Source: Spirochaetota bacterium (GTDB lineage Bacteria > Spirochaetota > UBA12135 > COTS27 > JAFLEE01). Taken from it: a stretch of 41,674 bases of DNA. The position numbers were made by a program, and so were the translations under genes. This document shows, piece by piece, positions 2,115-36,019 of the stretch (position 1 is the first letter of the stretch; every line of letters starts with the position of its first letter). The notes under the pieces were generated by a model. The model was not told the origin of the DNA. It was given only the letters and a program-made list of their open reading frames with translations, and did not search any database. The stretch covers positions 1 to 41,674 of the forward strand of contig JAFLEE010000044.1 of the NCBI GenBank assembly GCA_017302015.1, read 5' to 3'.

Positions 2115-2137
2115 GCGCGGGCCGTTAGCGGCCGCGC
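2115..2137. terminator. Hairpin at the convergent gene ends
   Basis: GCGCGG plus CCG (2115-2124, one bulged G) pairs with CGGCCGCGC (2129-2137) around a TTAG loop (2125-2128). The loop holds the TAA stop of the leftward glycosidase gene, and the 5' arm begins four bases after the FabF stop. There is no T-run on either side, so it may be a bidirectional transcript-end hairpin rather than a classic terminator. Confidence 0.35.
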
Positions 2138-4869
2138 GTGAAGCGCACCCCCAGATTGCCCTGGGTTTCGGTGACCAGGATCTCCACAAGCCCGGGCCCC
2201 TTGCCCGGCACGATCCAGCGGACCCGGCTCGTGCTATAGGCTTCCGTCGCGATCGCCTTTTCCTTCGGCGCGCCGAACTCCTTCTCCCAGGCGGCCAAGA
2301 GCTGGGCCAGGGGCGGGGGCTGGGTGAAGGTATACGCGATGCGCGCCAGGCCCCCCTGGTCGAAGGCGAGCTCCACATCCGCGCTGGATTTGAAGATCAC
2401 CTGGGCCTCCGAAAGGGTGATCCGCTTTTCCGCCCGCGGCGAATCGTCGAAGCGGCTGATGGAGGATCTGAGGAGGTTCCCGTCGCGCAGGGCCTGGTGG
2501 GCCGAGGCGTAATCCTGGTTCCAATCCACCCCGGGGAGCGGATTCCACAAGCCCGAGGGCGCGAAGGCGGCGCCCTTCGCCGAAGGCGCCGTCCCGCTCC
2601 GGCGCGTCGAAACCGCCGCGCTTTGGGCGCCATCCTGGACGGCCCCTCGGCGCTCCACCGTGAGCACGCCCATATAGACCGCCTCTTCGCCCGTCATGAC
2701 GGCGCGGGCGTCCTTTTCCTTTTTGGAGGCGCATTTTCCCAGGGCGAAATCGAACCCTTCCCATGCGTAGTCGACGCGCGTCGGGAAGGCGAGTTCCAGG
2801 CCGACCTTATCTTGGATCACCGGGGCCGCGCCCTTCTGCTTCGTCCGGGCGCCCTGGGCCGAGGGGCCGATGAAGCCGCCATTGGCGGGGGCGCCGCTGA
2901 AATCGAAATCGAAGCCGGTATTGCGCGCGTCGTAGACGGCGTTGACCAGCATGCGCGTCGAGGCCTGCGGCCCCGTCAGGGGCCTTCCATCGGCGCTCGC
3001 GAGGGCGAAGGTGACGAACGGCACGCCGGAGGCCTTGGCGAGCACGATCCCGTCTTTGAAGCGGTACGGAAGGCCGTCCGTCGGACCGACATAGGCCTTG
3101 GCCGTGGGCGTGTCGATGAGGAGGCGGCCATTGGGCCAATCCCACAGGATCTCCTCCCCCGAGGCCACCGCCTCGCTCACTTGCTCCGAAAGGGGTTCCC
3201 CGTCGATTTTCGAGCCACGAACCGCGGGCCCCGCGAAGGAGATTCGCGCCCCCCGGGCGAAGGCCGCCCGGGTCTGCTTGATCCCGCTGAACCCGTCATA
3301 CCCGAAGACCAGGTCATCGCCCACCTGGACGCGCGACGGGGCGGGCGACGGCGCCAGATGGAAGCCGAGGAAGAGCCGGCCCGCCAGGGCGAGGGAGGCG
3401 CACATGACGGGGTCGGTGGCGTGGGTGAACCCCGTATCGCCGATGGCATCCGACTTGTCGAGGATGGGCAGGGGCGATTCGAGGTACTCGCGGTCGGGGA
3501 TGGCCCGCGGCAATTGGAAGCGCGCATCGCCCTTGGCGCCGGCCTCGTTCCAATAATGCCAGAACACCCCGTCCCAATCCTGCCAGGAAGCGAAGGCGGC
3601 GAGGCGCATGGGGAACTCGGCCCTCGCGGGATTGGGGCGGCTCGTGTTGATCTCGTAGATGATGAGGGGCTTGCCCTCCACCGTATTCCCGTCGACCACG
3701 TACATCGACGGCGGCGCGGTGAGCGAGGAGGTAAGCGCCCACTGGTAGATCCCCGCATGGGTGACGTCGGCCTTCGCGTTGGCGTAGAGCCAGGGGAGCG
3801 TATTCTTGAACTGGGTATCGAACGAGAAGGGAACCACGGCGGCGCCCTTCCCCGCCGGGGCGAGGCTTCGGCAATGGGCGCGGAAGGCCTCGTTGTATTC
3901 GCCCACGAGTTCCACGAGGAAGCGCATGAGGTCCGCGCCGCGCGCCGCGGGATATTTGTTGCGCTCGGCGAAGAGCGGCTTCAGGGCCAGGTTCCCAGAG
4001 GCCCAATCTTCCCCCTCCTCCACACGGCCCCATGCGGCGAGGAGTTTTTCACCCGAGGCGTAGCGCGCCCCGAGCCAGGCGTTCCACCGCGCCGCGAGTT
4101 CCTCCCGGAAGAAGGCCGGCCATTTCTCGGCGCCCTGCTCGGGGAACCAACTGAGGAATCCGTTCTCGTTCTCGACCTCGTAGGTGGCGATGGCCTCCTC
4201 TTCGGCGTAGGCGCGCTTCGTGTACGGGTTCACGTGGGAGAGGATCCCCGCGGCGTGGGCGAAATTGATCTTGCGGATGCGCGGATCGAAATACCTAAAA
4301 AAGCGGTAATAACGGCGCACCTCCTTGTCGGCCAGGGCGGCCTTCCACGCCCCCCAGTCCGCCCCGCCGGAGACGAACGATCCGTCGGCGAGCGCTCCCG
4401 GCTCCGCCTTGAAGACGCCGCCCTCGTAATAATGGAGCGATGGGAACAGGACGAAGAGGCCCTCCTGCTTGCAGGCGGCGAAGAAGCGGTCGAACCGGTC
4501 GAGGCCGGCATCCTTTCCCGGATCGCCCACCGGCGCCGCGCTGAGTTTCCCCCGCGCGGCCGAGTCGCTGTCGTAACCGTTCACGGGGCCCCACAGGCGG
4601 ATGGCGTTGAACCCCATCTTGCGGATGCGCGCGGCGGTATCCACGTTCACGCTGTCGTGGCGGCAGACGCCCCACAAACGAAGGCGCTTCTCGCCATAGG
4701 TGAGGTGGCCGGCCTTCACCGTGGTATAGACCCCGTCCACCGGACGCAGCGGATTCTCAAAAATAGATGCAGCGTATTGAGAATCCGCAAGGAGATTCGC
4801 TTGGAGCAACAGGAATAATGACATTAGCATTCTTCGAAAAATTAGGGCGTCATCCCAAAGGGTCGTCAT
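2125..4869 (-). CDS. Secreted GH5-like (clan GH-A) glycoside hydrolase
   Basis: A 914-aa exported protein with a TIM-barrel glycosidase domain resembling distant GH5/cellulase-like families. The N-terminus has a charged start and a hydrophobic stretch (about residues 14-27), a signal peptide or anchor. The barrel starts around residue 35. The putative acid/base is E235 in EVENENGFLSW and the putative nucleophile E406 in PLIIYEINTSRP, placed as expected for a retaining clan-A enzyme. Roughly 350 C-terminal residues look beta-rich and may include accessory domains. GAGGAG lies 5 nt before the ATG, which fixes the start. It is the last gene of the leftward run, 52 nt after the GH2 gene. Substrate cannot be predicted. 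Confidence 0.75.
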   Translation of the reverse strand: MTTLWDDALIFRRMLMSLFLLLQANLLADSQYAASIFENPLRPVDGVYTTVKAGHLTYGEKRLRLWGVCRHDSVNVDTAARIRKMGFNAIRLWGPVNGYDSDSAARGKLSAAPVGDPGKDAGLDRFDRFFAACKQEGLFVLFPSLHYYEGGVFKAEPGALADGSFVSGGADWGAWKAALADKEVRRYYRFFRYFDPRIRKINFAHAAGILSHVNPYTKRAYAEEEAIATYEVENENGFLSWFPEQGAEKWPAFFREELAARWNAWLGARYASGEKLLAAWGRVEEGEDWASGNLALKPLFAERNKYPAARGADLMRFLVELVGEYNEAFRAHCRSLAPAGKGAAVVPFSFDTQFKNTLPWLYANAKADVTHAGIYQWALTSSLTAPPSMYVVDGNTVEGKPLIIYEINTSRPNPARAEFPMRLAAFASWQDWDGVFWHYWNEAGAKGDARFQLPRAIPDREYLESPLPILDKSDAIGDTGFTHATDPVMCASLALAGRLFLGFHLAPSPAPSRVQVGDDLVFGYDGFSGIKQTRAAFARGARISFAGPAVRGSKIDGEPLSEQVSEAVASGEEILWDWPNGRLLIDTPTAKAYVGPTDGLPYRFKDGIVLAKASGVPFVTFALASADGRPLTGPQASTRMLVNAVYDARNTGFDFDFSGAPANGGFIGPSAQGARTKQKGAAPVIQDKVGLELAFPTRVDYAWEGFDFALGKCASKKEKDARAVMTGEEAVYMGVLTVERRGAVQDGAQSAAVSTRRSGTAPSAKGAAFAPSGLWNPLPGVDWNQDYASAHQALRDGNLLRSSISRFDDSPRAEKRITLSEAQVIFKSSADVELAFDQGGLARIAYTFTQPPPLAQLLAAWEKEFGAPKEKAIATEAYSTSRVRWIVPGKGPGLVEILVTETQGNLGVRFTRGR

Positions 4870-4921
4870 AGTTGCTCCTCACAATGTGTCGCTAAACTGG
4901 GAAGCCACGAACGATTACCAT

Positions 4922-7900
4922 CTATTTGCAATCAGATTCCGACATTTCAAGCGTATATTCGATTGTGATTTCCTCGCCCATCGCGAGTCGTTCCATTCCC
5001 ACCTTCCCCGGTGTGACGCCAAAACGCCCTTTGTCGTCGTACCACACTCCATCCTTGTGGCGCTCGTAGCGCTCGTCGAAACGAACGATCGCCATGCCGT
5101 GTGAGGTGGGCAACACCAGTGATCCAGGATGAGAAGCCCCTTTCGCCATCGCGGGCGCCCCCCCGAGAAAGCCGGGTGCGAGTTCGGCCCCGAGTGACAG
5201 ATCGACGACACCCCCCTTCAACTGTGCCCGCCCCTCGGGGGTCAAGCGCAGCGTAAGTCGAGCATGAATCGAATGGTCGCCCAATCGAATGATTTGGGAA
5301 TAAGTGCATTGGGGTAGCTTGACGGGCCCCCTCCGGATCGTCGGTTCCGGCCCATCCTCGAACTTCCAGGGTTCAGGCCCGGAAGGATGCGCGAGGAATT
5401 GGAAATTGGCACCTGCGCGAACCCTTAATTGCCAATAAGCTAGATCGCGCCAAAGAGGAGCCCCTTTGCATGTCCCGAACCATGGAATGCGCAGGGACGG
5501 TGTGACATAGAAGCGCCACGGTCCCCATTCGATTTTCTGCAGTCCGGGGGAATTGGAAAGCCCGGTTGGGAGCATCCCTGCTTCGGCCACGGAGACGGAA
5601 AGGCTTTTTACCTCCACCTCGCTTCGAATCCGATTCGCCGCGGTGAGGCCGATGAGAAAGTATTGAGCCTTGGTCGAGCGGCTCTCGACTTCGATGGCGA
5701 CGACCTCCTTTTCTGGAAATGGATTGTCCCACTCGACAAGCAATGCCCCGGTATTCTGGCGAGGCGGGGCGGAGCGCCATCCCACCCGGGCTTCCGGCAG
5801 GGGCCGTTCACCGTCCTCGATCTTGTCGATGAACCACCAATCGTCGATATTGATTCGGTGTCGAATGGATATTTCAGCGTAGGGGTCGGGTTTCCCCGGT
5901 ATCCATGAATCGCGTTCCTGATAATATAGCCGGAGGCGCGCCATCTCCTCTCCGGCCTTGAGGTTTACCCATGCCGCGCTGTGCAAGATGAATAATTTTT
6001 CGAATCGCCCACGCACGGGGAGTTCCGGGGAGCGATTGGATCGCGAGGGCCATGAATGGCCTTGAACCGTGACGAGTCCACGCCCATCATTCAGGGAGGG
6101 ATCGGCGATCTGGAATGGAACGCCGCCAAACGCACACTTGCCGACAGGGAAATTCACCAAACCCTTCCCGGCCCCCTCATCAGTCCAACCTCCCTTTGCA
6201 TTTTGGGACACTTCGTCATCACGAAATCCCGTGTTCACGATGGGTGAGAGCGGGAGTTCGGTGAAGGAGAGGCGGCTCATGCGTTCGCGCAATCGAATTT
6301 CTTCCTCCCTCCCCGAGAAGTCGCCTCGAACCCCCAGATTGTGCAGGAGCGTGAAGGCGAATCGCTTTGCCTGTTTCAGGCCCACTTCCCGCCAACGAGT
6401 ATGGTCGAGGAGCAGTCGCCCTTTGCCCAAGGGTATTTCGACCAAATAGGCCGGCGCGAGGAGAGGACGAGAGACGGCACCCTCCACTCCAAGAGTGACC
6501 CGTCCCACGTCCATAGGAGATTCTTTCCCGGGTTGGCCTGCGGCGGGGCGGCGCCCTTCGATCGTGGCCCATGCCAGGTCATATTGCGAGAGACCTTCCA
6601 ATAATAGGTGTCGGGAAATGAGATAGGCTTCTGTTGAGTAAAGCGCGTTCGTCCTCAGCGAAATCCCGAACTGTTCCTGAAGGCTCAACGCCGTTTGACC
6701 ATCCGGGCCGTTGATCCAGAGCGTCGCACCGTTCTCCACCAGGGGCCGTGTTCCCGCCGGAATCTTCCCTCCGGCGATAAAGATGACCGGGTCCACTCCC
6801 GCCTCGTCGGGGAGGGGTAAACGAAGGAAACTCGCCATTTCTTGGCGAAGGGCATGCGCGGGAACCCACAGGGGATGAATCTCGGGGGAACGGTAGTCGA
6901 GACCCCAAGCGATGATATTCTGGAAGAGGCGTTGTGCCGCAGGATCCCGTGAGAGGGACGTTGTCAATTCCAATTGGCAAAATAAGAAGGCGCCCTTCCC
7001 GTGCTGGGCCTCGAGGAGGGGACTATACCTCAAATCCCCATGGAATTCTGTCTGTCCACTCAGCAGGATCGGTTTCACGCCCGGGGAAAGCGGCGCGAAC
7101 GGTGCATTGACTACCGTGACCCAAGAGCGATCTTCGTCCATGAAATAGCGCAAATCTTCCGGGAGTAGTCCCGCGATCGTTCGATGCCACGGCGCGGCCA
7201 CGACCGCACCCGCACTGTGGCTTGAGTGGAAGCCGTCTTCTAGGCGAACGGGGAAGCGGGAAGAGAATCGCTCCTGACCGAACACGATGACGCGCAACCC
7301 CTTCTCGACAGCGGCGCCCAGCAGGGGAGCCAACACCTCGTCATCTTCCCTGCATGAACCAGGGGCCATCAAGAGCACCTCAAGGGCGGACACTACGTCG
7401 GCATCCATCGAACTGATTTCGTCGATCGTATTCCCGCTAGCCTTGAGGGCTGCCCGCATCGTCCCGCGAGGATCGTATAGTTTGACCCCCGTTCTCCTCG
7501 TGGGCTCCTTTCTGGCCGGGAAGACCGTGTAGCGACGTTGCCACTTGTCGGTAAAGCCGCTCGTTTCGCCCCGCGTGGAGACTTCCAGTCGGCAATAACT
7601 CGGCGTCGCCACCTCGGGCATGGGAAGCTGGATGGGAACTTCGCACCGCGAGGCGCAAGCCAAGCGACTCGTTCCCCGTCCTTCTCCGAGGTTTTTCCCA
7701 TCTTCCCCCTGGAGCGTCCAAGACCAGGCGACATTCTCCTCTGATTCTGTGTCATTCAAGACGAGGAGGGTCTGGGGGAACCGGCCGGGAAATGCGCGAT
7801 GATCCTCACCCATCACCCACGCCGCCACCGGGGCGAGGCCATTCCAACCAGCAGCGAAACCGATGTGCCCGGTCGCGGCCGCAATATCCAATTCACGGTG

Positions 7901-10384
7901 CTTGCGCCAAAGTAGTTCGCGCATCCCATCCATGCACACCTTGACGCCGGTCGGATACCGACCCGCATCGCTCGGCAGGCAACGCCAAATCTCGTCCCCA
8001 AAGAGCCAGGGAACCCATTCTTTGCCATCGGTAACCGAAAGCCCTTCGCTATCCCAAACGGGCTTCTGTGCCTTTTGCCACTCCCAGCGCGCCACCTTTT
8101 CATACTCGTCCTTCACAACCTCGATTTCCTTCTCCAACCTCGCACGAACGCCGGGCGGTTGGGCGGAGGGCGGTACCTTGAACCACTGAAGATCCACGGG
8201 CAGGGCGTGGTAGTAATAGAGATAATGCGGGCTGACCATGCGCGAAGCCCCAAGGAGATCGTGTCCCCGTGAAAAATGGACGAAATGGCGTGAGTCGAGT
8301 CCCTCCACCCGACGTTCCAATGCAGCCATGAAAGAGACAGTCGTCGGGTCAGAAGTGGGAGGTTCGTTCCCGAGGGAGTATGCAAACAGAGCGGGGTGGT
8401 TGCCATCGGCGCGTACGATACGTTCCCATTCGCAGCCCATACGTTCCCAGAGGAGTGGATCCCTCATTTCATACATTTGCCCGCCGAACGGGGAGAAGAA
8501 ATTTTCCCAACAGGCGAAATACCCCAGTTCGTCGGCCTGGTGGAGGGCCTCCAGTTCCTGAGCGCGTACGAAACTGAGACGCTCCAAGCGATTGTAGTTA
8601 TTCGAGCGAACCGGGTGCAAGTAGGCTGCGGCTTTCCGGCCATAGCCATTGCCATAAGGGCGGATGCGATTTCCGTTCAGGAGAAAGTCTGTCCCGGCGA
8701 TGCTCAGTTCCCGGAAACCGAAGCGCTCCCGATGCGTATCGAGGACGCCTTCGCCCGAACGCACGACGCTACGGCACTCGTAGAGCGTGGGTCTTTGGGG
8801 GGACCATTCTCGCGCCTCAGGCCAGGGGGCGACATTGGTGATGATAAGACGCCCCCCAGATGCCAAGCGCACCCGAATCTCGGGGAGCGTCTTAAGGAGA
8901 ATCCCCCTGTGAAAAATGGTTTGCTCCACAACGACCTCGCGATTCGGTTCGCTCGCGTCATTGACGATCTCCAAGCGAGCGGTGAAACGTTTCTCGGGAA
9001 CCACCCGGCACTCCAGGTCGACCTGATCGATTCGAATCGTGGGGACAACCCGTAGCTCGGGGAGATGATTCATGCCGATGGCGAATTGACGGGGGAGGGA
9101 TGGCACCGCTGCGCAGAATTGAGCGGCAGCATGTACGCCATCAGCCAGTTTGCTGGCTTTAGAGGAAAGGGTCGCCGAGTAGTCGACGAGGGCGTAAGCC
9201 AATTCGTGGTTGCGCTCGGCGGCGAGGGCGCTGGTGATATCGAGGGTATCGGGCAATTGCCAACTGAAGCGTGTCCCGACCGATTTCCCATCCACAAAGA
9301 CCTCTGCGGCGCTCATGACGTCACGCATCGAGAGAAGGACCCGCTGGCCTGGAGCGGGTGTGTCCAGGCTAAAACGGCTCACGAGCCAAAGGCGATGGGC
9401 CGGCATTCGGTCAGCGCCGCTGATGATCGGCGTGTAAGGCGGACTTCCGGATGGCGGTGAGAAATTTGTTTGCCAGGCATCAACCGGGAGCGGGTATGAG
9501 AAGGATTCCCCTTGACGCACCCAGCGATACTTCCAGGAAGAATTCGCCATCATTACGGATCGATTCGATCCCGTGTTCGCGAATCGGAAGGCCTCCGTGA
9601 ACGTTGCGAGGTATGGGAGTGACCGACCGAGCGGTCCTTCCAGGCACGCACGCACGCGGTACTCCCGGGGATTTTCCTGGCGGACCGCAACCGCCGCGCC
9701 GAATCCAAAGGGCGAGGCAGAGAGGGGGAGACGCACCTCGCGCAAGCGCGTCCCAAAATAGTCATCGATCTCAACCAGCAATGCGCCTTTGAATGCTTCA
9801 CCCACGCGATTTCGAACCGAGAATGACACCGTGGAAGCCCCCGGTGGACCGATGACCCGTAGATCGAGTGCCGTCGCGGAATTGGCATCCACTCTCCTCA
9901 GGACCGCACTCTCAAAATGGTTGGGGAATCGCGAATCGAAATCGCGAACCGCCAGGGTGATGCGACGCCCGTCCTCGAATCTGCCGAAAAAAAGGCGGCC
10001 GGTGCGCTCTCCCGTAAAGCGCCCCCAACTCCCATGGCTCCCGTCAAAAAGCATACGGCCATCGAGCCAAGCTCCGAGTACCACAAGCGGATACCCGATT
10101 TCCAGCATCACATTGCTGAGAACAGGACGGGGCAAGCCCTCGAGGTCGAATCGATACCATATCACGCCACCTCGCACCCTGGGATGCGCCAATTGCCAAG
10201 ATCGAGTAAGGACTTTCCCCAAGGGAACCCAATTCAAATGAGACGGAGGAATTTGGTAATCATCTGTTTCGGCGAGTGCGAATTCAGTTCGTGCCTCGCC
10301 AAGAATGGTTCCTTCACCACGAACGAATCGAATACCCAGGAGAAGAAGAACACAACCAAACAGACAGGCAGAATGTCGTTTCAT
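4922..10384 (-). CDS. Giant secreted GH2-like glycoside hydrolase (1820 aa)
   Basis: A very long GH2-family-like protein; typical GH2 enzymes have about 600-1100 residues. A signal peptide covers about residues 1-23. Two jelly-roll sugar-binding-like regions lie around 55-165 and 290-400, followed by an immunoglobulin-like domain and a TIM barrel. Putative acid/base E674 is in AYSLGNEPPTS and putative nucleophile E780 in PVWDSEGLSV. After the barrel, segments around 1000-1110 and 1210-1250 look like glutamine-amidotransferase-like folds as in beta-galactosidase trimerisation domains. The last 500 residues are beta-rich and unrecognised. The start is 3 nt after the previous stop, with AGGAAGG as ribosome site, so it is translationally coupled. 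Codon use is less GC-rich at third positions than in its neighbours. Substrate unknown; a galactoside or glucuronide is only a guess. Confidence 0.8.
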   Translation of the reverse strand: MKRHSACLFGCVLLLLGIRFVRGEGTILGEARTEFALAETDDYQIPPSHLNWVPLGKVLTRSWQLAHPRVRGGVIWYRFDLEGLPRPVLSNVMLEIGYPLVVLGAWLDGRMLFDGSHGSWGRFTGERTGRLFFGRFEDGRRITLAVRDFDSRFPNHFESAVLRRVDANSATALDLRVIGPPGASTVSFSVRNRVGEAFKGALLVEIDDYFGTRLREVRLPLSASPFGFGAAVAVRQENPREYRVRACLEGPLGRSLPYLATFTEAFRFANTGSNRSVMMANSSWKYRWVRQGESFSYPLPVDAWQTNFSPPSGSPPYTPIISGADRMPAHRLWLVSRFSLDTPAPGQRVLLSMRDVMSAAEVFVDGKSVGTRFSWQLPDTLDITSALAAERNHELAYALVDYSATLSSKASKLADGVHAAAQFCAAVPSLPRQFAIGMNHLPELRVVPTIRIDQVDLECRVVPEKRFTARLEIVNDASEPNREVVVEQTIFHRGILLKTLPEIRVRLASGGRLIITNVAPWPEAREWSPQRPTLYECRSVVRSGEGVLDTHRERFGFRELSIAGTDFLLNGNRIRPYGNGYGRKAAAYLHPVRSNNYNRLERLSFVRAQELEALHQADELGYFACWENFFSPFGGQMYEMRDPLLWERMGCEWERIVRADGNHPALFAYSLGNEPPTSDPTTVSFMAALERRVEGLDSRHFVHFSRGHDLLGASRMVSPHYLYYYHALPVDLQWFKVPPSAQPPGVRARLEKEIEVVKDEYEKVARWEWQKAQKPVWDSEGLSVTDGKEWVPWLFGDEIWRCLPSDAGRYPTGVKVCMDGMRELLWRKHRELDIAAATGHIGFAAGWNGLAPVAAWVMGEDHRAFPGRFPQTLLVLNDTESEENVAWSWTLQGEDGKNLGEGRGTSRLACASRCEVPIQLPMPEVATPSYCRLEVSTRGETSGFTDKWQRRYTVFPARKEPTRRTGVKLYDPRGTMRAALKASGNTIDEISSMDADVVSALEVLLMAPGSCREDDEVLAPLLGAAVEKGLRVIVFGQERFSSRFPVRLEDGFHSSHSAGAVVAAPWHRTIAGLLPEDLRYFMDEDRSWVTVVNAPFAPLSPGVKPILLSGQTEFHGDLRYSPLLEAQHGKGAFLFCQLELTTSLSRDPAAQRLFQNIIAWGLDYRSPEIHPLWVPAHALRQEMASFLRLPLPDEAGVDPVIFIAGGKIPAGTRPLVENGATLWINGPDGQTALSLQEQFGISLRTNALYSTEAYLISRHLLLEGLSQYDLAWATIEGRRPAAGQPGKESPMDVGRVTLGVEGAVSRPLLAPAYLVEIPLGKGRLLLDHTRWREVGLKQAKRFAFTLLHNLGVRGDFSGREEEIRLRERMSRLSFTELPLSPIVNTGFRDDEVSQNAKGGWTDEGAGKGLVNFPVGKCAFGGVPFQIADPSLNDGRGLVTVQGHSWPSRSNRSPELPVRGRFEKLFILHSAAWVNLKAGEEMARLRLYYQERDSWIPGKPDPYAEISIRHRINIDDWWFIDKIEDGERPLPEARVGWRSAPPRQNTGALLVEWDNPFPEKEVVAIEVESRSTKAQYFLIGLTAANRIRSEVEVKSLSVSVAEAGMLPTGLSNSPGLQKIEWGPWRFYVTPSLRIPWFGTCKGAPLWRDLAYWQLRVRAGANFQFLAHPSGPEPWKFEDGPEPTIRRGPVKLPQCTYSQIIRLGDHSIHARLTLRLTPEGRAQLKGGVVDLSLGAELAPGFLGGAPAMAKGASHPGSLVLPTSHGMAIVRFDERYERHKDGVWYDDKGRFGVTPGKVGMERLAMGEEITIEYTLEMSESDCK

Positions 10385-10387
10385 CCT

Positions 10388-11629: not shown

Positions 11630-12528
11630 CGGTGCGCGATCCTCTCCCCGTCGCTCTCCACGGTCACGCGGCCCCGATCCCCGGTGATGCGCACGGTGGC
11701 GCCGGACGCCTCGAAGAGGGTCTTCGCCGTGCAATTCGCCAGCCACCGGTCGAAGAGGCTCACCACCACGAGGGAAGGCCGCGTCGCCGCCACGAAGTTC
11801 TCCGCCGTGTGGAGCCCATGCCCCGGGGCGACGAGCACGTCGCATGCCAGGGCCCCGACCGGCAGGGAGGGCACCAAGAGTTCCTCTTGGTCTTCCTTCT
11901 CGATATCGCCGCCCAGCACGAAGGATTTCTTCCCGTGGCGGATGCCCAGGATGAGCGCATTGGAATTGAGCATGTAATGGGATGCGGGATCCTTCGGGTT
12001 CCTCTTTTCGGGATGGGGATCGGGGAAGAAGCCCCGCGGCGGGGCCAGCACCTTCACCTCGAGACCGGGATCCATGGGGATGGGATCGCCCCCGAGGACC
12101 GCTTTCCATGCGCCGCGGGCCTTGAACCGTTCACGGATGCCGTTAAAATCGGAGAGTTCCCTCTGGTAGCCCGCGCTCATGGCGCCGGTGAAATCGTAGC
12201 CGCTATCGACGAGGAGGGCGATGGGGAAATGTTTCTCCAGCCAGAGGAGTCCCCCGAAATGGTCGTAATGGGCGTGGCTGACGACCACGCCGTCGATCTT
12301 CGTGAATCCGCGTTCCCGCAGGAACGGCGCGATGAGGTCGCGGCCGGCGTTGAAATCGCCCACCCACTGGTGCGGCGCGCCGTCGGGCCCGATGCCCGTG
12401 CCCATGGGATAGCCGCAGCCGGTGTCATAGAGCCAGACCCCGCCCCCCGGGAGTTCGAGAACGAGGGCTAAGCCGACGCCGCGCCCCGTGTCGGGGGATG
12501 GTAGGCAAGTGAGGATGAACGGTTTCAT
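11626..12528 (-). CDS. Metallo-beta-lactamase-fold hydrolase (ComEC-like catalytic domain)
   Basis: A 300-aa soluble protein with the metallo-beta-lactamase fold. The HxHxDH zinc motif is SHAHYDHFGG (H85, H87, D89, H90), with further ligands in VLGGDIEKE (D208) and VAPGHGLHT (H237). The order and spacing resemble the hydrolase domain of the DNA-uptake protein ComEC, but the membrane channel part is absent. Such stand-alone proteins are often phosphodiesterases or nucleases of unknown substrate. No signal peptide is seen. Its stop overlaps the next start as ATGA, so translation is probably coupled to the P1/PLC-like NPCBM gene. AGGA lies about 8 nt before the ATG. Confidence 0.8.
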   Translation of the reverse strand: MKPFILTCLPSPDTGRGVGLALVLELPGGGVWLYDTGCGYPMGTGIGPDGAPHQWVGDFNAGRDLIAPFLRERGFTKIDGVVVSHAHYDHFGGLLWLEKHFPIALLVDSGYDFTGAMSAGYQRELSDFNGIRERFKARGAWKAVLGGDPIPMDPGLEVKVLAPPRGFFPDPHPEKRNPKDPASHYMLNSNALILGIRHGKKSFVLGGDIEKEDQEELLVPSLPVGALACDVLVAPGHGLHTAENFVAATRPSLVVVSLFDRWLANCTAKTLFEASGATVRITGDRGRVTVESDGERIAHR

Positions 12529-12597
12529 GGGGGTTCCTATGGAGTACTGGATTTTCCTTGATGGGGGATGGTTTTTGAGCGTCGGTCGGTTAGGTTA

Positions 12598-13596
12598 CTA
12601 TCTGGCCCAATGAGTCCCGATTTCGAAAGCCGCGGGCAAAGGCGCCGGGACATCGGCGAGCCAATCCCAGAGGGTGAAGGCGGGCCTTCCCCGGTCGACA
12701 CCGAGGATGAGCGCATAGGATTCTTCATAACGCTTCGCGTGGATATCCGCGCGCTCGCGGCGGACATTCCACCGGGAAGAGGGGCAATGGGCTTGGAGGA
12801 GATTGGGGGCGACGAGGCGCAGGCCGGCGTCGGGATGGTGGGGGCTCAGGTGGACGTGCCCGGAGCACCAGAGCACGGGAACCCCGGCCTCGCCGATGCC
12901 GTCGAGGGTTTCGTCCTCTAGATAGAGGCAGGGATCGCGCCCCGGTTCGTAGTAGACGAAGTCCGTGGGAAGGCTTGCGGCGAGGGGCAAATGGCAGAAG
13001 GCGATGATCGGCCTTCCGTCCGATCGGGAGGCCTCCAGGGCACCGCGGATGAAGGCGCCGCCCCCCGGGGGGAGTTCTTTGAGGGCGTCATGCTCGTGCT
13101 TCACGCGGCGGCGCTCCATGACGGAGGGGTCCCAGTCGGTCAACATAAAATGGAGGAAGCGGACGCCGACCGCCTCTTCCATCCAATATGAATCGTGGAT
13201 CCCGAAGAATCTGGTAAATTGATCGAGTTGATTCCGGCGCGACTCGGGGGAGCCCGTCTTCCAGATCCGCCCGTACTGGCCCCCTTCCGGCGGATGCACT
13301 TCGAAGGTGAACTCGTGGTTTCCGATCACCGCCGAGTAGGGCTTCCCCAGGCGGGCGATAAAATCGCCCAGGGCCCGGTATTCGTGGTCGGTCCCGTAAT
13401 AGGCCACCGTATCCCCGAGGAAGACCACCTGGTCCACCGTCCCCAGCGCGCGCGAGGCGAGGATCCGCTCCAGGATATCCGGGGACGACGGCACGTGGAG
13501 ATCCGGCAGGAGCAGGAGGCGCGCCGAAATTTTTCCCGCCAGCGACTCCGCGAGGGGGGTCGGCGGGGGATGGACTGCGGGCGTGGCCCCCGTCAT
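12598..13596 (-). CDS. Calcineurin-like metallophosphoesterase
   Basis: 332 aa. Bimetal phosphoesterase of the calcineurin superfamily, which hydrolyses phosphomono- or diesters. Motifs in order: D32/H34 in LPDLHVPSS, GD in FLGDTV (D62), GNHEF (N93, H94), CHLPLA, and the final SGHVHLSP. The ATG at 13596 overlaps the previous stop as ATGA and is preferred over the upstream in-frame TTG at 13608. No signal peptide, so probably cytoplasmic. A 69-nt gap to the metallo-beta-lactamase gene is the largest inside this run. Substrate unknown; the context of glycosidases and other phosphoesterases suggests a sugar- or nucleotide-linked phosphate. Confidence 0.88.
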   Translation of the reverse strand: MTGATPAVHPPPTPLAESLAGKISARLLLLPDLHVPSSPDILERILASRALGTVDQVVFLGDTVAYYGTDHEYRALGDFIARLGKPYSAVIGNHEFTFEVHPPEGGQYGRIWKTGSPESRRNQLDQFTRFFGIHDSYWMEEAVGVRFLHFMLTDWDPSVMERRRVKHEHDALKELPPGGGAFIRGALEASRSDGRPIIAFCHLPLAASLPTDFVYYEPGRDPCLYLEDETLDGIGEAGVPVLWCSGHVHLSPHHPDAGLRLVAPNLLQAHCPSSRWNVRRERADIHAKRYEESYALILGVDRGRPAFTLWDWLADVPAPLPAAFEIGTHWAR

Positions 13597-14384
13597 GGCA
13601 GCACCCAACCGTTTCGGGCGGCCAGGCGGTGGAAGGCCTCCATCACCCCGTCGCTGAAACCGAGGGTGCCGACGGCGCCCCCGTTTTTTTCCACGTGGGC
13701 CTTCACGTCGGCGTGGGCGTTTTCGGGGCAGAGATGGTGGCGGGAGAGTTCGGGCCGCATCATGGCAAGGTCGGCCCGTTCGTCGCCGGCCACCACGACC
13801 TCCTCGGGCTTGTAGCCGCGAAGCCGCAGCACCTCGCCCAAATTGGCGTGCTTCCCCAGGAAGCCGGGGACGACCGAGATGCGGTTCTCCTTATGCCCGT
13901 AGAGGGAAAGGCCCCTCGCGTTCCAATCGACGGCTTCGACATGGGCGCAGAAGGCTCGGGTCTCCTGCGGGATGCAGGTCATATCGAACCAGTGTCCGTA
14001 ATAATTGAGGCGCGCCGGCGTGAAGCGGGCCGCCATGTCCCGCATGAAGGGGATGAGGCCGGTGGCGTTGGCCTCGGCCAAGCGCTTTTCCATGGCGGCG
14101 TTGAAGGGCTCCACGGAGACCGGGCCCGCGTCGCCCGGCGTCCACAGGCGGCAGCCCAATTCGGCCATGAAATAGAGCGGGCGGCTCTTCACCGCGCTGG
14201 ATTTCAGCAGATGCCATTGCCCGAGGGCGTCCCAGGCGGTATTGATGGCCCAGCGGCAACCGGCCGCATCCAGTCGATCGAGGAAGGCGCTGTAGGCATC
14301 GGGGAAGCGGCCGTAGGGTTCGTAGCCTCCGCCGAGGGACGTGCCGTCGAGGTCGATGACGAGGAGTTTGGGGAGGGGGGGCAT
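13593..14384 (-). CDS. HAD-superfamily hydrolase (Cof/sucrose-phosphatase-like)
   Basis: 263 aa. Haloacid dehalogenase-type phosphatase. Motif I is VIDLDGTSLGGG (nucleophile D11, acid/base D13); K178 in GFLGKHANL and D201/D205 in VAGDERADLAMM complete the active site. The large cap between motifs I and III resembles the C2 cap of Cof and sucrose-6-phosphate phosphatases, which act on phosphosugars. Earlier in-frame starts exist up to 14450, but they overlap the previous gene; the ATG at 14384 has GGAAG 7 nt upstream and leaves a 32-nt gap. Cytoplasmic. Probably removes phosphate from an imported sugar phosphate (inference). Confidence 0.85.
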   Translation of the reverse strand: MPPLPKLLVIDLDGTSLGGGYEPYGRFPDAYSAFLDRLDAAGCRWAINTAWDALGQWHLLKSSAVKSRPLYFMAELGCRLWTPGDAGPVSVEPFNAAMEKRLAEANATGLIPFMRDMAARFTPARLNYYGHWFDMTCIPQETRAFCAHVEAVDWNARGLSLYGHKENRISVVPGFLGKHANLGEVLRLRGYKPEEVVVAGDERADLAMMRPELSRHHLCPENAHADVKAHVEKNGGAVGTLGFSDGVMEAFHRLAARNGWVLP

Positions 14385-14416
14385 GGGGATCTTCCGTGGG
14401 TGGAACTCTCGGGAGT

Positions 14417-16660
14417 TTAGCGATCCCATCGCAATCGCGCCAGACCCCACGCCTTCATGTCGAAGCGGAACTCCCCGTCCACCGCCCGAAGTTTCACAAG
14501 GGGCGGGATGCGCTCCAACGCGTCCATCTTCTGGGCCTCCGGCGACGACATGTCGATGCCGTTATAGGTGACGTCCTCGTCCTTCACGCTCCCCTTGGCG
14601 GGCGCGACCTCATCCACCGCCATCTCCGCTCCCAGGCCCGCCGCGGCGAGGCGCAGCAACTGGGGTTTGCCCGACTTATTGACCGCGATCACCGTGACCC
14701 GGCCGCCCTTCGTACCCGCGAAGATCGAGATCTGGTTCGTGGCGTCCCAGGGATTCTCCACGGCCACGAGTTGGTCGCCGAAATCCCTCCAAAGGGCGAA
14801 GGCGTAATAGGAGGGCCAGCGGAAGGCGGTGGGGCGGTCGTAGATCCCCTCGCTGGCGGGGCTCTTGCGGTAATCGCTGGCGTTCATGGGGCGCAGGAGG
14901 TTCATCCACCCCCCGTCATTGCCGTGCTTCGTGTCGAAGGGGCCGTAGGCGCAATTGAAGGCGAGTTTTTCCTCGAGCATGATGCCGAGCATGTCGGTGA
15001 GGTAGACGGCCGAGGCCATGCGGATGGAACCGGCCTTCAGAGGCTCGTAGCAATGCCACTCGGAATTGGCAAGGGGGGCCGCGCCGTTCCCGGTGTCGCG
15101 CATATGGGCGCGGATGGCGGTGATGTAGGTGCGCCCCTCCTTCCCGGCCTGGAGCGCCACGCCCTCCTCGTCGAGGGTGCTGGAATGGGTGTAGCCGTGG
15201 TAGGTGAAGAGATCGACCACGCCCTTGAGGCGCGTGAGCAGCACCTCGTTCCAATCCCAATGCCATTTGGCCTTGTGCTCGGGGGCGAGCATGGCGGCGA
15301 TCTGGATGGACGGGTCGACGCGCTTCATCGCCGCGGCGTAGGCGAGGAAGCCCTCGCACTTTTCCCCATTATAGTCCCGGCCCTCCAGGAAAAGGCGCGC
15401 CCGTTCGGCGCTATTGCGCCCCGGGGCCACATTGTCGTAATTCTCCAGGAAGAGCCAATTGCTCCAGGGCACGGCGTTATGGGCGTAATAATCCTCGTTG
15501 CCGATCTCCCAGTACTTCACGCAGAAGGGCGCCGGGTGCGGGGCGTGGCGGTCATCCCCCTTGGCCCTCTGCTCGGCCCAATAGCCCACGGTCTTCCAAT
15601 CCTCGCCGCGCTTGTCCACCCCGATCACGGCGGGGTCGCCGACCTTGCCGTTGGCGTAGGCCACCGCGGCCATGGCGGTCTCCTTCGTCTGGTGGGGCCA
15701 ACCCGGGGCCACGACGAAGAGGTTCGCGCCGAGGGATTCGGCCCAGCCCAGCAGCATCCGGAAATCGCTTTGATAGTAGCGGTAATTGGCTTCGGGGCCC
15801 CAGCCCCGATCCTGGTCGCCCGATTGGAGATGGCCCCACCAGGTGCGGTTGGGGCGCTCATAGGTCACCCCGCCCTTCACCTCGGTCTGCTTCGGCTTGG
15901 AGGGGAGGAAGCAACGCAGCATCGCGCCCTTGCCGATGCCCATCGACGGGAAACGGCGGGGCACGACGAGTTCCCAATCCAGGGGCATGATGCCGCCGGC
16001 GCTGAAATGGGTCCCCAGATAGCCGGGGGGCACCGGAGCGACCGCGCGTTCGGGGAAGACTCGCACGGGCGCCTTCGGGATGGCGTAGACCTTCTCGCCG
16101 CCGGAAACCGGCTTGAGCCCGGCGGGAAGGGCCGCGAAGATCACCTCCAGGTTCTTCTGCCCCTGGGTTCGCACGCCGGTCTGCTTGTCTTTATAGTAGA
16201 TCTCGACGACGAGTGCGGCCTTCCCCGCCGCGGGGCACGGTGGAAGTGGCGCATCCACGAATTTTTTCTGGGCGTCATCCCAGCGATTGCCCTTACCGAT
16301 CGCGCCCTCCGCCCGTTCCCCGAGATCGAGGATGAAATCGACCGTGCGCACCGTCTTCGGGATCCAGGGCGGGTCGCGGCGCTGGAGGAACCATCCATCG
16401 CTCCACACCGGCTTGCCCGAAAGGGCGCTGGCGAAATCTTCCCGGCTCTTGATCGTCGCGTACCAATTCCCGTCTTGGGGCTCGAGTACGGGATCCCCGC
16501 ACGTCAAGCGCACCAAGACCTTGCCCGGTTCCTTCATATAGATCGGAAGCCCATAAAGCGTCTTGCCGTTATCGGGGCTCCAGAACGCCTCCACCTCCAC
16601 GGCTTCGAGGAAGGCGAAGAGGGCGAACGAAATCCAGGTCCATTTCCATAAAGCGCGCAT
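14417..16660 (-). CDS. Secreted GH51-like (clan GH-A) glycoside hydrolase
   Basis: 747 aa with an N-terminal signal peptide (about residues 1-25). Residues 30-200 form a beta-rich N-terminal region. The TIM barrel starts near 210 and carries putative acid/base E389 in KYWEIGNEDYY and putative nucleophile E534 in LANSEWHCYEP, a pattern close to GH51 arabinofuranosidases, though overall similarity looks distant. The C-terminal 130 residues form a beta-sandwich typical of GH51/GH39-like enzymes. GAAGGA lies 5-6 nt before the ATG. It sits between the secreted P1-like protein (35-nt gap) and the HAD phosphatase. Arabinosidase activity is only a guess from fold. Confidence 0.75.
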   Translation of the reverse strand: MRALWKWTWISFALFAFLEAVEVEAFWSPDNGKTLYGLPIYMKEPGKVLVRLTCGDPVLEPQDGNWYATIKSREDFASALSGKPVWSDGWFLQRRDPPWIPKTVRTVDFILDLGERAEGAIGKGNRWDDAQKKFVDAPLPPCPAAGKAALVVEIYYKDKQTGVRTQGQKNLEVIFAALPAGLKPVSGGEKVYAIPKAPVRVFPERAVAPVPPGYLGTHFSAGGIMPLDWELVVPRRFPSMGIGKGAMLRCFLPSKPKQTEVKGGVTYERPNRTWWGHLQSGDQDRGWGPEANYRYYQSDFRMLLGWAESLGANLFVVAPGWPHQTKETAMAAVAYANGKVGDPAVIGVDKRGEDWKTVGYWAEQRAKGDDRHAPHPAPFCVKYWEIGNEDYYAHNAVPWSNWLFLENYDNVAPGRNSAERARLFLEGRDYNGEKCEGFLAYAAAMKRVDPSIQIAAMLAPEHKAKWHWDWNEVLLTRLKGVVDLFTYHGYTHSSTLDEEGVALQAGKEGRTYITAIRAHMRDTGNGAAPLANSEWHCYEPLKAGSIRMASAVYLTDMLGIMLEEKLAFNCAYGPFDTKHGNDGGWMNLLRPMNASDYRKSPASEGIYDRPTAFRWPSYYAFALWRDFGDQLVAVENPWDATNQISIFAGTKGGRVTVIAVNKSGKPQLLRLAAAGLGAEMAVDEVAPAKGSVKDEDVTYNGIDMSSPEAQKMDALERIPPLVKLRAVDGEFRFDMKAWGLARLRWDR

Positions 16661-16695
16661 GGTTTTCCTTCAGGAGTTTGAGTTTTACGTCGTGG

Positions 16696-18363
16696 TCAGT
16701 TCGTAAGCGTTTTGAGGGCCGCCGCGAGGACCGAAGCGCCCATGGAATCGAGCCGGGGGCGGGAGAAATCGGCCATCGATTCCCCCGTGGTCCACGCGAA
16801 GGGCGCCAAGAGGTAGATCGGGAGGAAGAGCGACCGCACGCGACCGGTTTCATCCTTCCCGGCCGCCGCAATGCAGGCGCGCTCCCCCCCGTTCTCCGTG
16901 AAGGCCAAGGGGATCAGATCGCCCGCGTCGAGATCCACCGTGAGGGCGCAGCGGGGCACGTGCCAGCCGGCGCGGGTATTGGGATTATGGGCCAATCGAA
17001 ACGGGGATCCGGGAATGGAGGCCGCCCAATCGGCCGCGAAAACGAGGCGTAGGGAGCCCACGGTTTTTTCGTTGAGATCCCCATATTTTTGGGAAATAGG
17101 GATGAGCGCCGTAGAACCCGGCTTCAGCGCTTTGGAAAGCGCGCCCAGTTGGCCGCCATCCTTCCCGCCGATCCAGAGGATTTTTCCCCCCGCTTGATAG
17201 AAACGCGCCGCCGCCTTCTTCACGGGTTCGGGCACCCCTTGGTTTGCGGCGCACACCACCAAAAGCCGCGCGTTCGCCGGGGCCAGGCGCGCCAGGGACT
17301 CCCCATCGCGGAGGTCGAGGACGCGGGAGGGGATCTTCGCGGAAGCCCATTCCCGCAGGATCGCCGAAAGGATGGTCTTGGCGTTGAACCCGAACGCCCC
17401 GCGGTCCATGGCGACCGAAGGCTCCACCAAGACGGCTACGGGCGCTTCCCCGGGATAGCCCTCCAGAGCCCCCGCATAGATCGCATCGTCGGCGAGGGGG
17501 CGCTCGCGCACCACGCGGGCCGCCCCTTCCTCGGCCCGATGCAGGAGCGCTTCGTTTAATTCCATCCCCGGGGCATCCCCGGAATATTCCCACGCCGCCC
17601 GCGTGAATAAGAGGGCCGTGCGCACGCCTTCCGCCCCGCATTCGGCCAAGGCCGCTTGGGCCGAACGGAGATCCTCGGGCGAGGCGCCCTGGTTATAACT
17701 TCTTGCGATGGCGCCGCCGCGGCGCGTGAGGAATCGATTGGCCTCCATGGGCTGGGCATAGACGGCGAGGATCGCCGCTTCCAAGGATGCGGGGACCCCC
17801 GTGGGCGGAAGATCCCGCAGCGCGGTCTCCCATGCGTTTTTTCCGTCGGGGCTCTTCACTAGATCCGCGAGATCGAGGGGGCAGCCGTCTTTCATGGGGA
17901 GGCCGTAGGGCAAATAGGCGAACTTGATGGGTTCGAGGAGCGGGTCGTGGTTGCACGCCGCTTCGTCGGCGAGGGTATGGGAGAGCGCCGCAAACCAGGT
18001 CCCCGCGCGTAGGGGATCTTTCTGGGCGAAGGCCCGGGCGAGCAGGAGGAGATTCACCGCCTTTCCCGTCTCGCTGTGGAGGCTATAGCGATGGGGGAGT
18101 TTGTGCTTGGCCAGGAGGGCCATCGCCTCTTCCCCCACTTCCGCGGGGGTAAACTTGGTGAAATCGTCCGGGTAATGGGATTCATGCAAGATCGCCTCGC
18201 GGCTTTTCCCGGAGACGAGGAAGGCGAGGATGGCGGGCGGCAGGAGATCCATCACCTGGAGCAGGTGCACCTCGTGCCCGTCGCCCCAGGCGAAGGCGCT
18301 GGCGGGCGAGAGCGCGATGAGAAGCGCCATGCGCCGCACGGATGCCGGCATCCCAATCTTCAT
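16696..18363 (-). CDS. Secreted S1/P1-nuclease/phospholipase-C-like protein with C-terminal Rossmann-like domain
   Basis: 555 aa. A signal peptide ends ASAFA, so cleavage would expose WGDGH, placing a tryptophan at the mature N-terminus exactly where zinc-dependent PLC and P1 nuclease use Trp1 as a metal ligand. Other candidate ligands are D66/D67 in HESHYPDDF, H96 in SLHSETG, and H129-x3-D133-x5-H139 in ALSHTLADEAACNHD, with the family's spacing. Residues about 320-555 look like a Rossmann or glutamine-amidotransferase-like domain (LLVVCAANQG, KILWIGGKDGG). It overlaps the LacI gene by ATGA, so it is the first structural gene of the run. Probably an exported phosphodiesterase; substrate (nucleic acid, phospholipid or teichoic-like polymer) unknown. 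Confidence 0.7.
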   Translation of the reverse strand: MKIGMPASVRRMALLIALSPASAFAWGDGHEVHLLQVMDLLPPAILAFLVSGKSREAILHESHYPDDFTKFTPAEVGEEAMALLAKHKLPHRYSLHSETGKAVNLLLLARAFAQKDPLRAGTWFAALSHTLADEAACNHDPLLEPIKFAYLPYGLPMKDGCPLDLADLVKSPDGKNAWETALRDLPPTGVPASLEAAILAVYAQPMEANRFLTRRGGAIARSYNQGASPEDLRSAQAALAECGAEGVRTALLFTRAAWEYSGDAPGMELNEALLHRAEEGAARVVRERPLADDAIYAGALEGYPGEAPVAVLVEPSVAMDRGAFGFNAKTILSAILREWASAKIPSRVLDLRDGESLARLAPANARLLVVCAANQGVPEPVKKAAARFYQAGGKILWIGGKDGGQLGALSKALKPGSTALIPISQKYGDLNEKTVGSLRLVFAADWAASIPGSPFRLAHNPNTRAGWHVPRCALTVDLDAGDLIPLAFTENGGERACIAAAGKDETGRVRSLFLPIYLLAPFAWTTGESMADFSRPRLDSMGASVLAAALKTLTN

Positions 18364-19400
18364 TTCGCGCCCCTTCCCCGGGGAGCCCGGATGCTATCGC
18401 CATCGACGCAGACCCCCGGGATCGGGTGGGAGGGAATGGGCTTGCCCGGCGCGTCCAGGCGTTCGAGCACCAGGCGCGCGGCGAGTTGCCCCGCGGCGAA
18501 TCGGTCGTACGGAACGCCCCCCAGGCGAAAGCCCCGGGCGGGGATGCGGGCCTCGAGGTCGAGGCTCGCCAGGCTGAGATCTTCGGGGATGGAGAGGCCC
18601 GCGCGGGATGCGGCGAGGAAAAAACTCTCGCTCACCGCGCCCATGGAGACCACGGCCGTGGCCTCGCTTTCCGCCAACCCCCGCTGGAGTTCCTGGATGC
18701 CGTACCCGGCGAGGGGCAGCACGGGAAGGCCGCGGGATTCGAGGAACGCGGTATACGTTTGGAGGCGCTCCGCGAAGCTGTAATGCACGGCTTCGCCCCT
18801 TTGGTAGCGCCCCCACCCCTCTTCCCCCACCAGGAGCGCGATGCGCCGATGGCCGAGTTCGAAGAGCCGCTCCATGAGGATCCGGGTCACCTCGGCCTCG
18901 TCGCGGTAGAGCGAGGCCTCTTTCGCGCCGGGGCGGCAATCCCACCACAGCACGGGGGTCTTGGACCGCCGGGCCCATTCCCCCAATCGCTCCGGCGCCC
19001 CGTAATGGACCACGAAGGCGTCGAAGAAGCGCTCCTCGAGGATGCGGGGCAGGTCGAGGCCGCCGTCGGCCCCCATCTCAGAAAGTTCGACCATGGTGAG
19101 ATGGAAGCCCCCTTCGGTCAGGCCATGGCTAAGGCCCACCATGAACGGCAGGATCCCATAATTGTCGAGCCGGCCCCCCGCGGATGCGTTGACGGCGGCG
19201 AAGCCGACCATGCGGCTTTTTCCGGCGCGCATATTCTGGGCGGCCCGGTCGGGGCGATAGCCCAGTTTCTGGGAGGCCTTCACTACCCGGGAGCGGGTTT
19301 CCGGGCTGTATTTCTCGGCGAGGCCCCGATTGAGGATATTGGAGACCGTGTTGGCCGAGAGGCCCAGGCGGGTGGCGATATCCTTGATGCCGACGGCCAT
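18360..19400 (-). CDS. LacI-family transcriptional regulator
   Basis: 346 aa. The N-terminal helix-turn-helix is KDIATRLGLSANTVSNILN with a normal hinge (PDRAAQNMRAGKS), followed by a periplasmic-binding-protein-like effector domain (about 65-335). The effector is probably a sugar. It is the first gene of a ten-gene leftward run and is joined to the next by an ATGA overlap. Its promoter holds a perfect palindrome typical of LacI-family operators, so it very probably represses its own operon. The ATG lies 8 nt after the -10 box, so the mRNA is probably leaderless and there is no ribosome site. Confidence 0.93.
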   Translation of the reverse strand: MAVGIKDIATRLGLSANTVSNILNRGLAEKYSPETRSRVVKASQKLGYRPDRAAQNMRAGKSRMVGFAAVNASAGGRLDNYGILPFMVGLSHGLTEGGFHLTMVELSEMGADGGLDLPRILEERFFDAFVVHYGAPERLGEWARRSKTPVLWWDCRPGAKEASLYRDEAEVTRILMERLFELGHRRIALLVGEEGWGRYQRGEAVHYSFAERLQTYTAFLESRGLPVLPLAGYGIQELQRGLAESEATAVVSMGAVSESFFLAASRAGLSIPEDLSLASLDLEARIPARGFRLGGVPYDRFAAGQLAARLVLERLDAPGKPIPSHPIPGVCVDGDSIRAPRGRGAK

Positions 19401-19408
19401 GATGCATA

Positions 19409-19437
19409 AGGATAGGGTGAACGTTCACATAAGTCAA
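19409..19437 (-). promoter_or_regulatory. Promoter with embedded LacI-type operator
   Basis: On the minus strand TTGACT (19432-19437) and TATCCT (19409-19414) are 17 bases apart. Between them lies GTGAACGTTCAC (19417-19428), a perfect 12-bp palindrome with the central CG typical of LacI/GalR operators. Binding there would block RNA polymerase directly. The start codon at 19400 begins 8 nt after the -10 box, which predicts a leaderless transcript. The rest of the 260-base gap (to 19660) shows no gene or clear terminator. Confidence 0.8.
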
Positions 19438-21187: not shown

Positions 21188-21194
21188 GGGCAGA

Positions 21195-21223
21195 ACTATA
21201 CCGCAGCCACCCCAATTGTTCAA
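21195..21223 (-). promoter_or_regulatory. Sigma-70 type promoter, probably leaderless
   Basis: On the minus strand TTGAAC (21218-21223) and TATAGT (21195-21200) are 17 bases apart. The ATG at 21187 begins 7 nt after the -10 box and no ribosome-binding sequence precedes it, so the transcript probably begins at the start codon. Confidence 0.7.
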
Positions 21224-21499
21224 ATTCCGTGATGCCTCACCTGGAATCGACTCGTCACAGGGCCGTTGCCTCACGGCGCAAGTTGACCCGAAATCCCCGA
21301 TCCGGGAGAAAAATCGAATCGCAATCGAATTTTCGGGGGGGCCAATCCCTGTTCAAGAGTGCCGAAGGGTTCGACGGGACGGTCCCGAGCTTCCGAGAGG
21401 TGCATTTGGGCTAAAATCCATCATCGACGAAAGAATCTTTTCGCCATGACGAACCTCGGAGGCCTACGCGAGGGCTCTGGCGAGACTCCGGCCTATCCC
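21224..21499. other. Intergenic region between two glycosidase genes
   Basis: Together with the promoter above this is a 312-base gap. It contains a repetitive AT-rich patch around 21309-21333 (ATCGAAT-type repeats flanked by G/C runs) and a weak hairpin-like stretch around 21425-21445. No open frame with a convincing protein and no T-run terminator for the upstream 960-aa gene were found. Confidence 0.4.
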
Positions 21500-31653: not shown

Positions 31654-31684
31654 ACCCGCCCCCCGGCCGCGGGTCAAAAACCCG
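31654..31684 (+). other. Mutually exclusive hairpins after the DUF4838 gene
   Basis: GCGGGT (31669-31674) can pair with ACCCGC upstream (31654-31659), or its CGGGT part (31670-31674) can pair with ACCCG downstream (31680-31684). The two stems exclude each other, as in attenuators, but the following sequence is A-rich, not T-rich, so termination is not obvious. Confidence 0.3.
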
Positions 31685-31732
31685 GAAAAAGAAGTAAAAA
31701 CGGCGGAAGAAGCCCCGGGGCCCCCGGCGTAT

Positions 31733-31755: not shown

Positions 31756-31764
31756 GAGCCACCC

Positions 31765-32937: not shown

Positions 32938-32952
32938 ACGCGCGGGCGCCCC

Positions 32953-35995: not shown

Positions 35996-36019
35996 TCGAT
36001 CCCCAAAGGAAGCCCTCCG

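Follow-up and report, generated by a model that had tools for sequence, protein, structure and literature searches.

A LacI-led run of glycosidase and phosphoesterase-fold genes in a Spirochaetota genome, a candidate locus for the use of phosphodiester-bearing glycans

What would an operon of glycosidases led by a LacI-family regulator do with several phosphoesterases? The question is raised by a leftward gene run (positions 19400 to 2125) in the window studied here, a 41,674-nt stretch of DNA from a Spirochaetota bacterium (GCA_017302015.1) that comprises contig JAFLEE010000044.1 (C105) in full. In this run, lacI is followed by glycosidase genes and by genes for five proteins of phosphoesterase or hydrolase folds. 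A smaller core of the set recurs, together with a related operator, in two other genomes of the phylum. The mix of glycosidases and phosphoesterases is probably real, and the set may degrade sugar polymers carrying phosphodiester groups.

Gene run, promoter, and operator

The run consists of nine genes in unbroken succession, one fewer than counted in a preliminary description of this DNA: LacI, PLC1, GH51-like, HAD, MPE, MBL, PLC2, GH2, and GH5-like (PLC, phospholipase C/P1 nuclease-like protein; GH, glycoside hydrolase; MPE, metallophosphoesterase; MBL, metallo-β-lactamase-fold protein). In this order, the intergenic gaps are −4, 35, 32, −4, 69, −4, 3, and 52 nt, all within the upper limit of 69 nt given there, and there are three ATGA overlaps (LacI/PLC1, HAD/MPE, and MBL/PLC2) rather than four. 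A convergent open reading frame at 849–2111, ketoacyl-synthase-like as read by eye, closes the run. Its features are as follows.

19409..19437, minus strand: promoter of the run (−35 TTGACT, 17-nt spacer, −10 TATCCT)
19417..19428, no strand: predicted LacI operator palindrome GTGAACGTTCAC, inside the promoter spacer
18360..19400, minus strand: LacI-family regulator, 346 aa (PF00356, 3.9e-9; PF13377, 4.9e-12)
16696..18363, minus strand: PLC1, exported P1/PLC-like domain plus C-terminal Rossmann-like region, 555 aa (signal-peptide-like start, then WGDGH)
14417..16660, minus strand: GH51-like exported glycosidase of clan GH-A type, 747 aa (47% identity to the orthologue in the related genome G162)
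13593..14384, minus strand: HAD-superfamily phosphatase-like protein of the Cof/IIB type without signal peptide, 263 aa (PF08282, 2.5e-4, at the cut-off)
12598..13596, minus strand: MPE, calcineurin-like, without signal peptide, 332 aa (PF00149, about 5.5e-13)
11626..12528, minus strand: MBL-fold hydrolase of the ComEC/phosphorylcholine-esterase type without signal peptide, 300 aa (PF00753, 2.3e-12)
10388..11629, minus strand: PLC2, without signal peptide, 413 aa (zinc-PLC/P1-fold domain 1–244, NPCBM/CBM51 domain 295–413)
4922..10384, minus strand: very large exported GH2-type protein, 1820 aa (PF00703, 5.4e-8)
2125..4869, minus strand: GH5/GH42-like exported glycosidase of clan GH-A type, 914 aa (40–43% identity to operator-bearing genes in the related genomes G162 and G146)

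The earlier view that a single operator-bearing promoter serves the run was borne out, as the site in front of lacI, with GTGAACGTTCAC in its spacer, is the only promoter-like site on the minus strand between 2125 and 19500. LacI and an operator within the promoter together predict a LacI-controlled operon. Promoter-like sites in general are about as frequent as in shuffled sequence, so what speaks for the promoter is the operator, where it lies, and the conserved regulon described below. No second exact copy of GTGAACGTTCAC exists in the 5.43-Mb source genome (165 contigs, 93% complete), which matches the LacI helix-turn-helix model 34 times. The lacI ATG lies 8 nt past the −10 box, and the transcript may therefore be leaderless.

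The preliminary assignments of MPE, MBL, HAD, and GH2 agree with the Pfam matches listed above. The GH51-like and GH5-like proteins are of the clan GH-A type by conserved glutamate pairs, the exact CAZy family being unsettled. Glu-389 (WEIGNE) and Glu-534 (NSEWH) of the GH51-like protein are kept in its G162 orthologue, and Glu-235 and Glu-406 of the GH5-like protein in the genes from both relatives. The GH51-like protein has no Pfam match and one weak PDB profile match, over a short stretch, to GH51 arabinofuranosidases (E 0.0017). All glycosidases of the run start with signal-peptide-like N termini. Pfam scans of the run's genes revealed no SusC/SusD pair, and the locus is not a polysaccharide utilization locus (PUL) of the SusCD type.

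Related loci and the conserved core

Relatives of the locus were sought among 393 Spirochaetota genomes with a query of six concatenated proteins, which led to G162 and G146, both outside the family of the source organism. Because such a query scores few candidates per genome, its absences alone were not used; GH51-like, HAD, MPE, and PLC2 were each searched for again on their own, and GH2 was compared only with the fetched neighborhoods. In the organism's own class, represented by four genomes, the GH51-like query found only itself.

In G162, a leftward unit comprises a GH51-like gene (47%), a PF00300 histidine phosphatase, MBL (64% identity), and PLC2. A LacI homologue (37%) is divergent from this unit, and the GH5-like gene (40%) forms a separate unit across lacI. 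In G146, the histidine phosphatase, MBL (58%), PLC2, and LacI genes lie together, and the GH5-like gene is found on another contig (C144). PLC2 directly follows MBL in all three genomes. The window LacI shares 37% identity over its full length with the LacI proteins beside both related loci (bit scores 234–239), whereas other LacIs compared with it reach bit scores of 71 at most.

The palindrome ATTAACGTTAA, which has the core AACGTT in common with the window operator, has three exact copies in G162 and two in G146. All but one of these five copies precede genes of the set. The GH5-like gene has one in each genome, in G146 on its separate contig; the other two precede the GH51-like unit of G162 and the phosphatase–MBL–PLC2 unit of G146. 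Near matches are found at the lacI starts. Co-regulation thus appears to be conserved, even though genes joined in one run in the window are split into separate units in the relatives. Behind the third G162 site (C1:206922) lie genes for a different LacI and a large glycosidase-like protein; this site was left out of the regulon. A sugar-isomerase-like gene nearby (region L093:6996-11712) has a similar counterpart ahead of the GH5-like gene in G146.

From the sequence comparison, the conserved core is LacI, the GH5-like glycosidase, MBL, PLC2, and a phosphatase slot of varying content, with the GH51-like glycosidase in two of the three genomes. The contents of the related loci thus define a core smaller than the gene set first described, in which just two of the five phosphoesterase-type families keep their place. 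The conservation across genera that the preliminary description had looked for extends to three genomes from two lineages of one phylum and is not wide. That description had also considered that the phosphoesterase genes might be absent where the glycosidases are kept. In G162 this is so for HAD, MPE, and PLC1; MBL, PLC2, the phosphatase slot, and the operator are all retained beside the glycosidases, and this retention supports the view that the two kinds of enzyme are functionally linked. The phosphatase slot is held by unrelated folds, HAD/MPE in the window and a histidine phosphatase in the relatives, and such variation would fit a need to remove a phosphate monoester.

The genes could also be, for the most part, an accretion of unrelated functions that share a promoter, a functional link existing only between LacI and the glycosidases. 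HAD, MPE, PLC1, and GH2 are indeed missing at the related loci: separate queries found no HAD in either genome, the G162 orthologue of MPE (56%) is unlinked to the locus and lacks the operator, and no GH2 orthologue was seen in the fetched neighborhoods. MBL homologues of other phyla, described below, likewise lie in unrelated contexts. However, both relatives retain the operator and the order PLC2–MBL–phosphatase, G146 despite its lack of the GH51-like gene, and we regard accretion as very unlikely.

Phosphoesterase-fold proteins of the run

MBL carries the motif HAHYDH followed by a conserved downstream Asp and His, the full HxHxDH/Asp/second His site. Its PDB profile matches are the MBL domain of ComEC (1.5e-22) and Pce (9.7e-4); this ComEC/Pce type was absent from the preliminary description, as was the NPCBM/CBM51 domain of PLC2. 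Pce/CbpE (CDD cd07731), the teichoic-acid phosphorylcholine esterase, has the MBL fold and releases phosphorylcholine from N-acetylgalactosamine (PMC10704324). The MBL proteins of the three loci form one clade (SH-like approximate likelihood ratio test (SH-aLRT) 99), which groups with copies from Lentisphaerae and Armatimonadota that apparently lack a signal peptide; several other sampled homologues have a signal-peptide-like sequence in front. Homologues are also present in Verrucomicrobiota, Planctomycetota, and Acidobacteriota. Since no other window family was found beside the MBL homologues of these five phyla, we do not extend the locus to them. PLC1 or PLC2 homologues occur elsewhere in 14 of the 22 genomes concerned, which, with no background rate at hand, was not counted as co-occurrence. 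At one Lentisphaerae locus (L045:818-4067), the gene of the MBL homologue and the beginning of a gene for a pyruvate-formate-lyase-like glycyl radical enzyme overlap.

In the AlphaFold2 model of PLC2 (mean predicted local distance difference test (pLDDT) 61), residues 1–244 assume the all-helical PLC/P1 fold and align with bacterial zinc PLCs (Z 12–13, root mean square deviation 3.6–4.3 over about 200 residues) and with the P1-type nuclease SmNuc1 (Z 9.7). The C-terminal domain aligns with CBM51 (Z 10–12) and matches PF08305 (2.3e-15); an NPCBM domain is present in 13 of 13 family members. His-6, Asp-40, His-119, Asp-123, and His-129 are invariant in these 13 members, and an HxxxE pair is present in all three operonic copies, which completes the metal-ligand series His, Asp, HxxxDxxxxxH, HxxxE. 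A His68-type ligand is missing in the G162 and G146 copies. PF00882 matches eight of the 13 members (best 2.8e-6), the window copy not among them.

In the usual picture of zinc PLC/P1 enzymes, a free N-terminal Trp serves as a metal ligand. Most PLC2 homologues of other phyla have a signal peptide followed by WG-x-x-H, whereas all three Spirochaetota copies lack a signal peptide and begin with Met; in the window PLC2, this Met stands where Trp1 is expected. PLC2 is thus a fold relative rather than a canonical member of the zinc-PLC/S1-P1 group. Of the 393 genomes, the PLC2 profile matches only the source genome (G000), G162, and G146, and the same three encode the close MBL. On an Armatimonadota contig (L131:6262-10365), two diverged PLC2 homologues lie close together, apparently without signal peptide and Trp, their starts being unclear.

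PLC1 is related to the PLC2 family by profile comparison (97%, E 1.6e-11). Its signal peptide is followed by the series Trp1, His, Asp, His, HxxxDxxxxxH, of which Trp-26, His-30, Asp-66, His-96, His-129, Asp-133, and His-139 are common to PLC1 and four homologues; beyond His-139, no conserved pair corresponds to the last HxxxE/D ligands. Used alone as a query in 296 genomes of the same phylum, PLC1 found only itself. Homologues are present in Lentisphaerae and Verrucomicrobiota genomes, and one from Lentisphaerae sits between GH42-like and GH5-like genes. A single-sequence structure model of PLC1 was too poor (pLDDT 37) and was discarded. The preliminary call of two P1/PLC-like proteins holds via homologues, fold, and ligand motifs, although the window copies have no PLC or nuclease match in Pfam.

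These features also bear on a glycan locus without phosphodiester chemistry, in which MBL, PLC2, and the phosphatase would act on intracellular lactones or sugar phosphates, or would be binding or structural versions of their folds. Phosphatases and MBL lactonases are common near sugar loci, and catalysis is uncertain both for PLC2 (no Trp1, and no His68-type ligand in the relatives) and for PLC1 (no last His/Glu pair). On the other hand, MBL has the complete HxHxDH, Asp, and His set and is nearest to phosphodiesterases, and PLC2 keeps five invariant metal-ligand-type positions in its family and HxxxE in the operonic copies. We consider such a locus unlikely, if a serious contender.

The nearest solved kin of these proteins, namely phospholipases C, SmNuc1, and ComEC nuclease domains, would equally suit necromass scavenging, with the glycosidases acting on wall or extracellular glycans and the PLC/P1 and MBL proteins on phospholipid head groups or nucleic-acid fragments. 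Environmental groundwater Spirochaetes do ferment dead biomass (PMC6052044). However, in none of the three Spirochaetota loci does PLC2, MBL, or a phosphatase carry a signal peptide, so that these proteins would not meet extracellular lipid or DNA. Since PLC2 moreover bears a domain of a sugar-binding type and the regulator is of the LacI type, scavenging of this kind seems a distinctly poor prospect.

Directly upstream of the run lies a second LacI-led leftward set (19661–25455).

24379–25455, leftward: LacI2
21500 to about 24400, leftward: DUF5060 protein
19661 to about 21190, leftward: ASD1/GH51-type protein

A rightward run on the plus strand (28731–40212) begins with an AraC regulator gene and continues with genes for DUF4838, M24 peptidase, polysaccharide deacetylase, a second DUF4838-like, DUF6786-like, and rhamnogalacturonase/epimerase-type β-helix proteins. 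Rfam has no match in the window.

Proposed function and comparison with known systems

We tentatively read the run as a LacI-repressed locus for using a glycan that contains phosphodiester bonds, either in attached groups or in its linkages, a reading that falls a little short of an even chance. Sugar polymers of this kind, such as teichoic acids, phosphocholine- or phosphoethanolamine-substituted glycans, and phosphomannans, are widespread in microbial biomass, yet searches of open-access papers turned up no locus that degrades them with a set like this one. Outside the cell, the exported GH-A glycosidases, joined in the source genome by PLC1 and GH2, would cut the polymer, and phosphorylated or phosphodiester-bearing fragments would be taken into the cell. 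MBL, PLC2, HAD, MPE, and the histidine phosphatase lack signal peptides and would thus act in the cytoplasm. There, MBL and PLC2 would open the phosphodiester, with the CBM51-like domain of PLC2 holding the sugar part of the substrate, and a phosphomonoesterase (HAD and/or MPE here, the histidine phosphatase in the relatives) would remove the remaining phosphate. The sugar product would then release LacI. The LacI-type control speaks for carbon use rather than for the scavenging of phosphate, no search for phosphate boxes having been made.

Several points weigh against the phosphodiester-glycan reading. The strongest kin of MBL is the ComEC nuclease domain, and the MBL and PLC/P1 folds serve nucleases and other hydrolases too. 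The run contains no transporter gene, so uptake of phosphorylated fragments is assumed, and signal peptides and localization were judged by eye and from hydropathy. The window PLC2 shares only 24–27% identity with those of the relatives and sits on a long branch, a single clade of the three copies being neither supported nor rejected (approximately unbiased (AU) test, p 0.287). The core is drawn from three genomes, of which two belong to the same family; it excludes HAD, MPE, PLC1, and GH2, and in G146 the phosphoesterase unit is present although a GH51-like gene is missing (only match, E 9e-4).

Of the phosphodiester-glycan locus proposed in the preliminary description, the link between glycosidases and phosphoesterases is thus supported, whereas the full five-family set is not conserved. 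By analogy, given the kinship of MBL to phosphorylcholine esterase and a precedent for activity on sugars (PMC10704324), the substrate is plausible. Dead microbial biomass is a plausible source of the glycan for groundwater Spirochaetes (PMC6052044).

A more specific proposal, which we hold to be somewhat unlikely, is that a PLC/P1-fold enzyme lost its signal peptide and metal-binding N-terminal Trp on relocation to the cytoplasm. There it would form an intracellular module for phosphodiester removal with an MBL of the ComEC/Pce type, also cytoplasmic, and an exchangeable phosphatase, within a LacI regulon for phosphodiester-bearing glycans. If true, this would be a type of utilization locus without a match in the open-access literature searched, and a PLC/P1-fold enzyme without leader and N-terminal Trp would alter the usual picture of the family. 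The conserved regulon also names candidate enzymes for the breakdown of phosphodiester-bearing glycans.

Among known systems, the run resembles Bacteroidota PULs in its local set of exported glycosidases with a dedicated regulator, and the phosphate utilization systems of Flavobacterium (PMC8115612) as a local gene set with exported phosphoesterases. In contrast to both, it has no SusC/SusD-type genes, its regulator is LacI-type, and most of its phosphoesterases are cytoplasmic as predicted. GlcNAc-PDase (PMC10704324) likewise exemplifies bacterial enzymes that remove phosphorylcholine or phosphoethanolamine from sugars, but it has the EEP fold, another superfamily according to that paper, and is set apart here by this description rather than by alignment. 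PLC2 shares the fold and the HxxxDxxxxxH and HxxxE motifs of the zinc-dependent phospholipase C/S1-P1 nuclease superfamily (PF00882, PF02265) and differs in its operonic form by lacking the signal peptide and N-terminal Trp and by its CBM51-like domain, whereas PLC1 keeps Trp1 and lacks the last His/Glu pair. MBL, finally, matches the catalytic part of Pce/CbpE and of the ComEC MBL domain by profile, including HxHxDH and the downstream Asp and His. In contrast to these proteins, it stands alone, has neither leader, choline-binding repeats, nor membrane channel, and is encoded within a LacI-led glycosidase operon.

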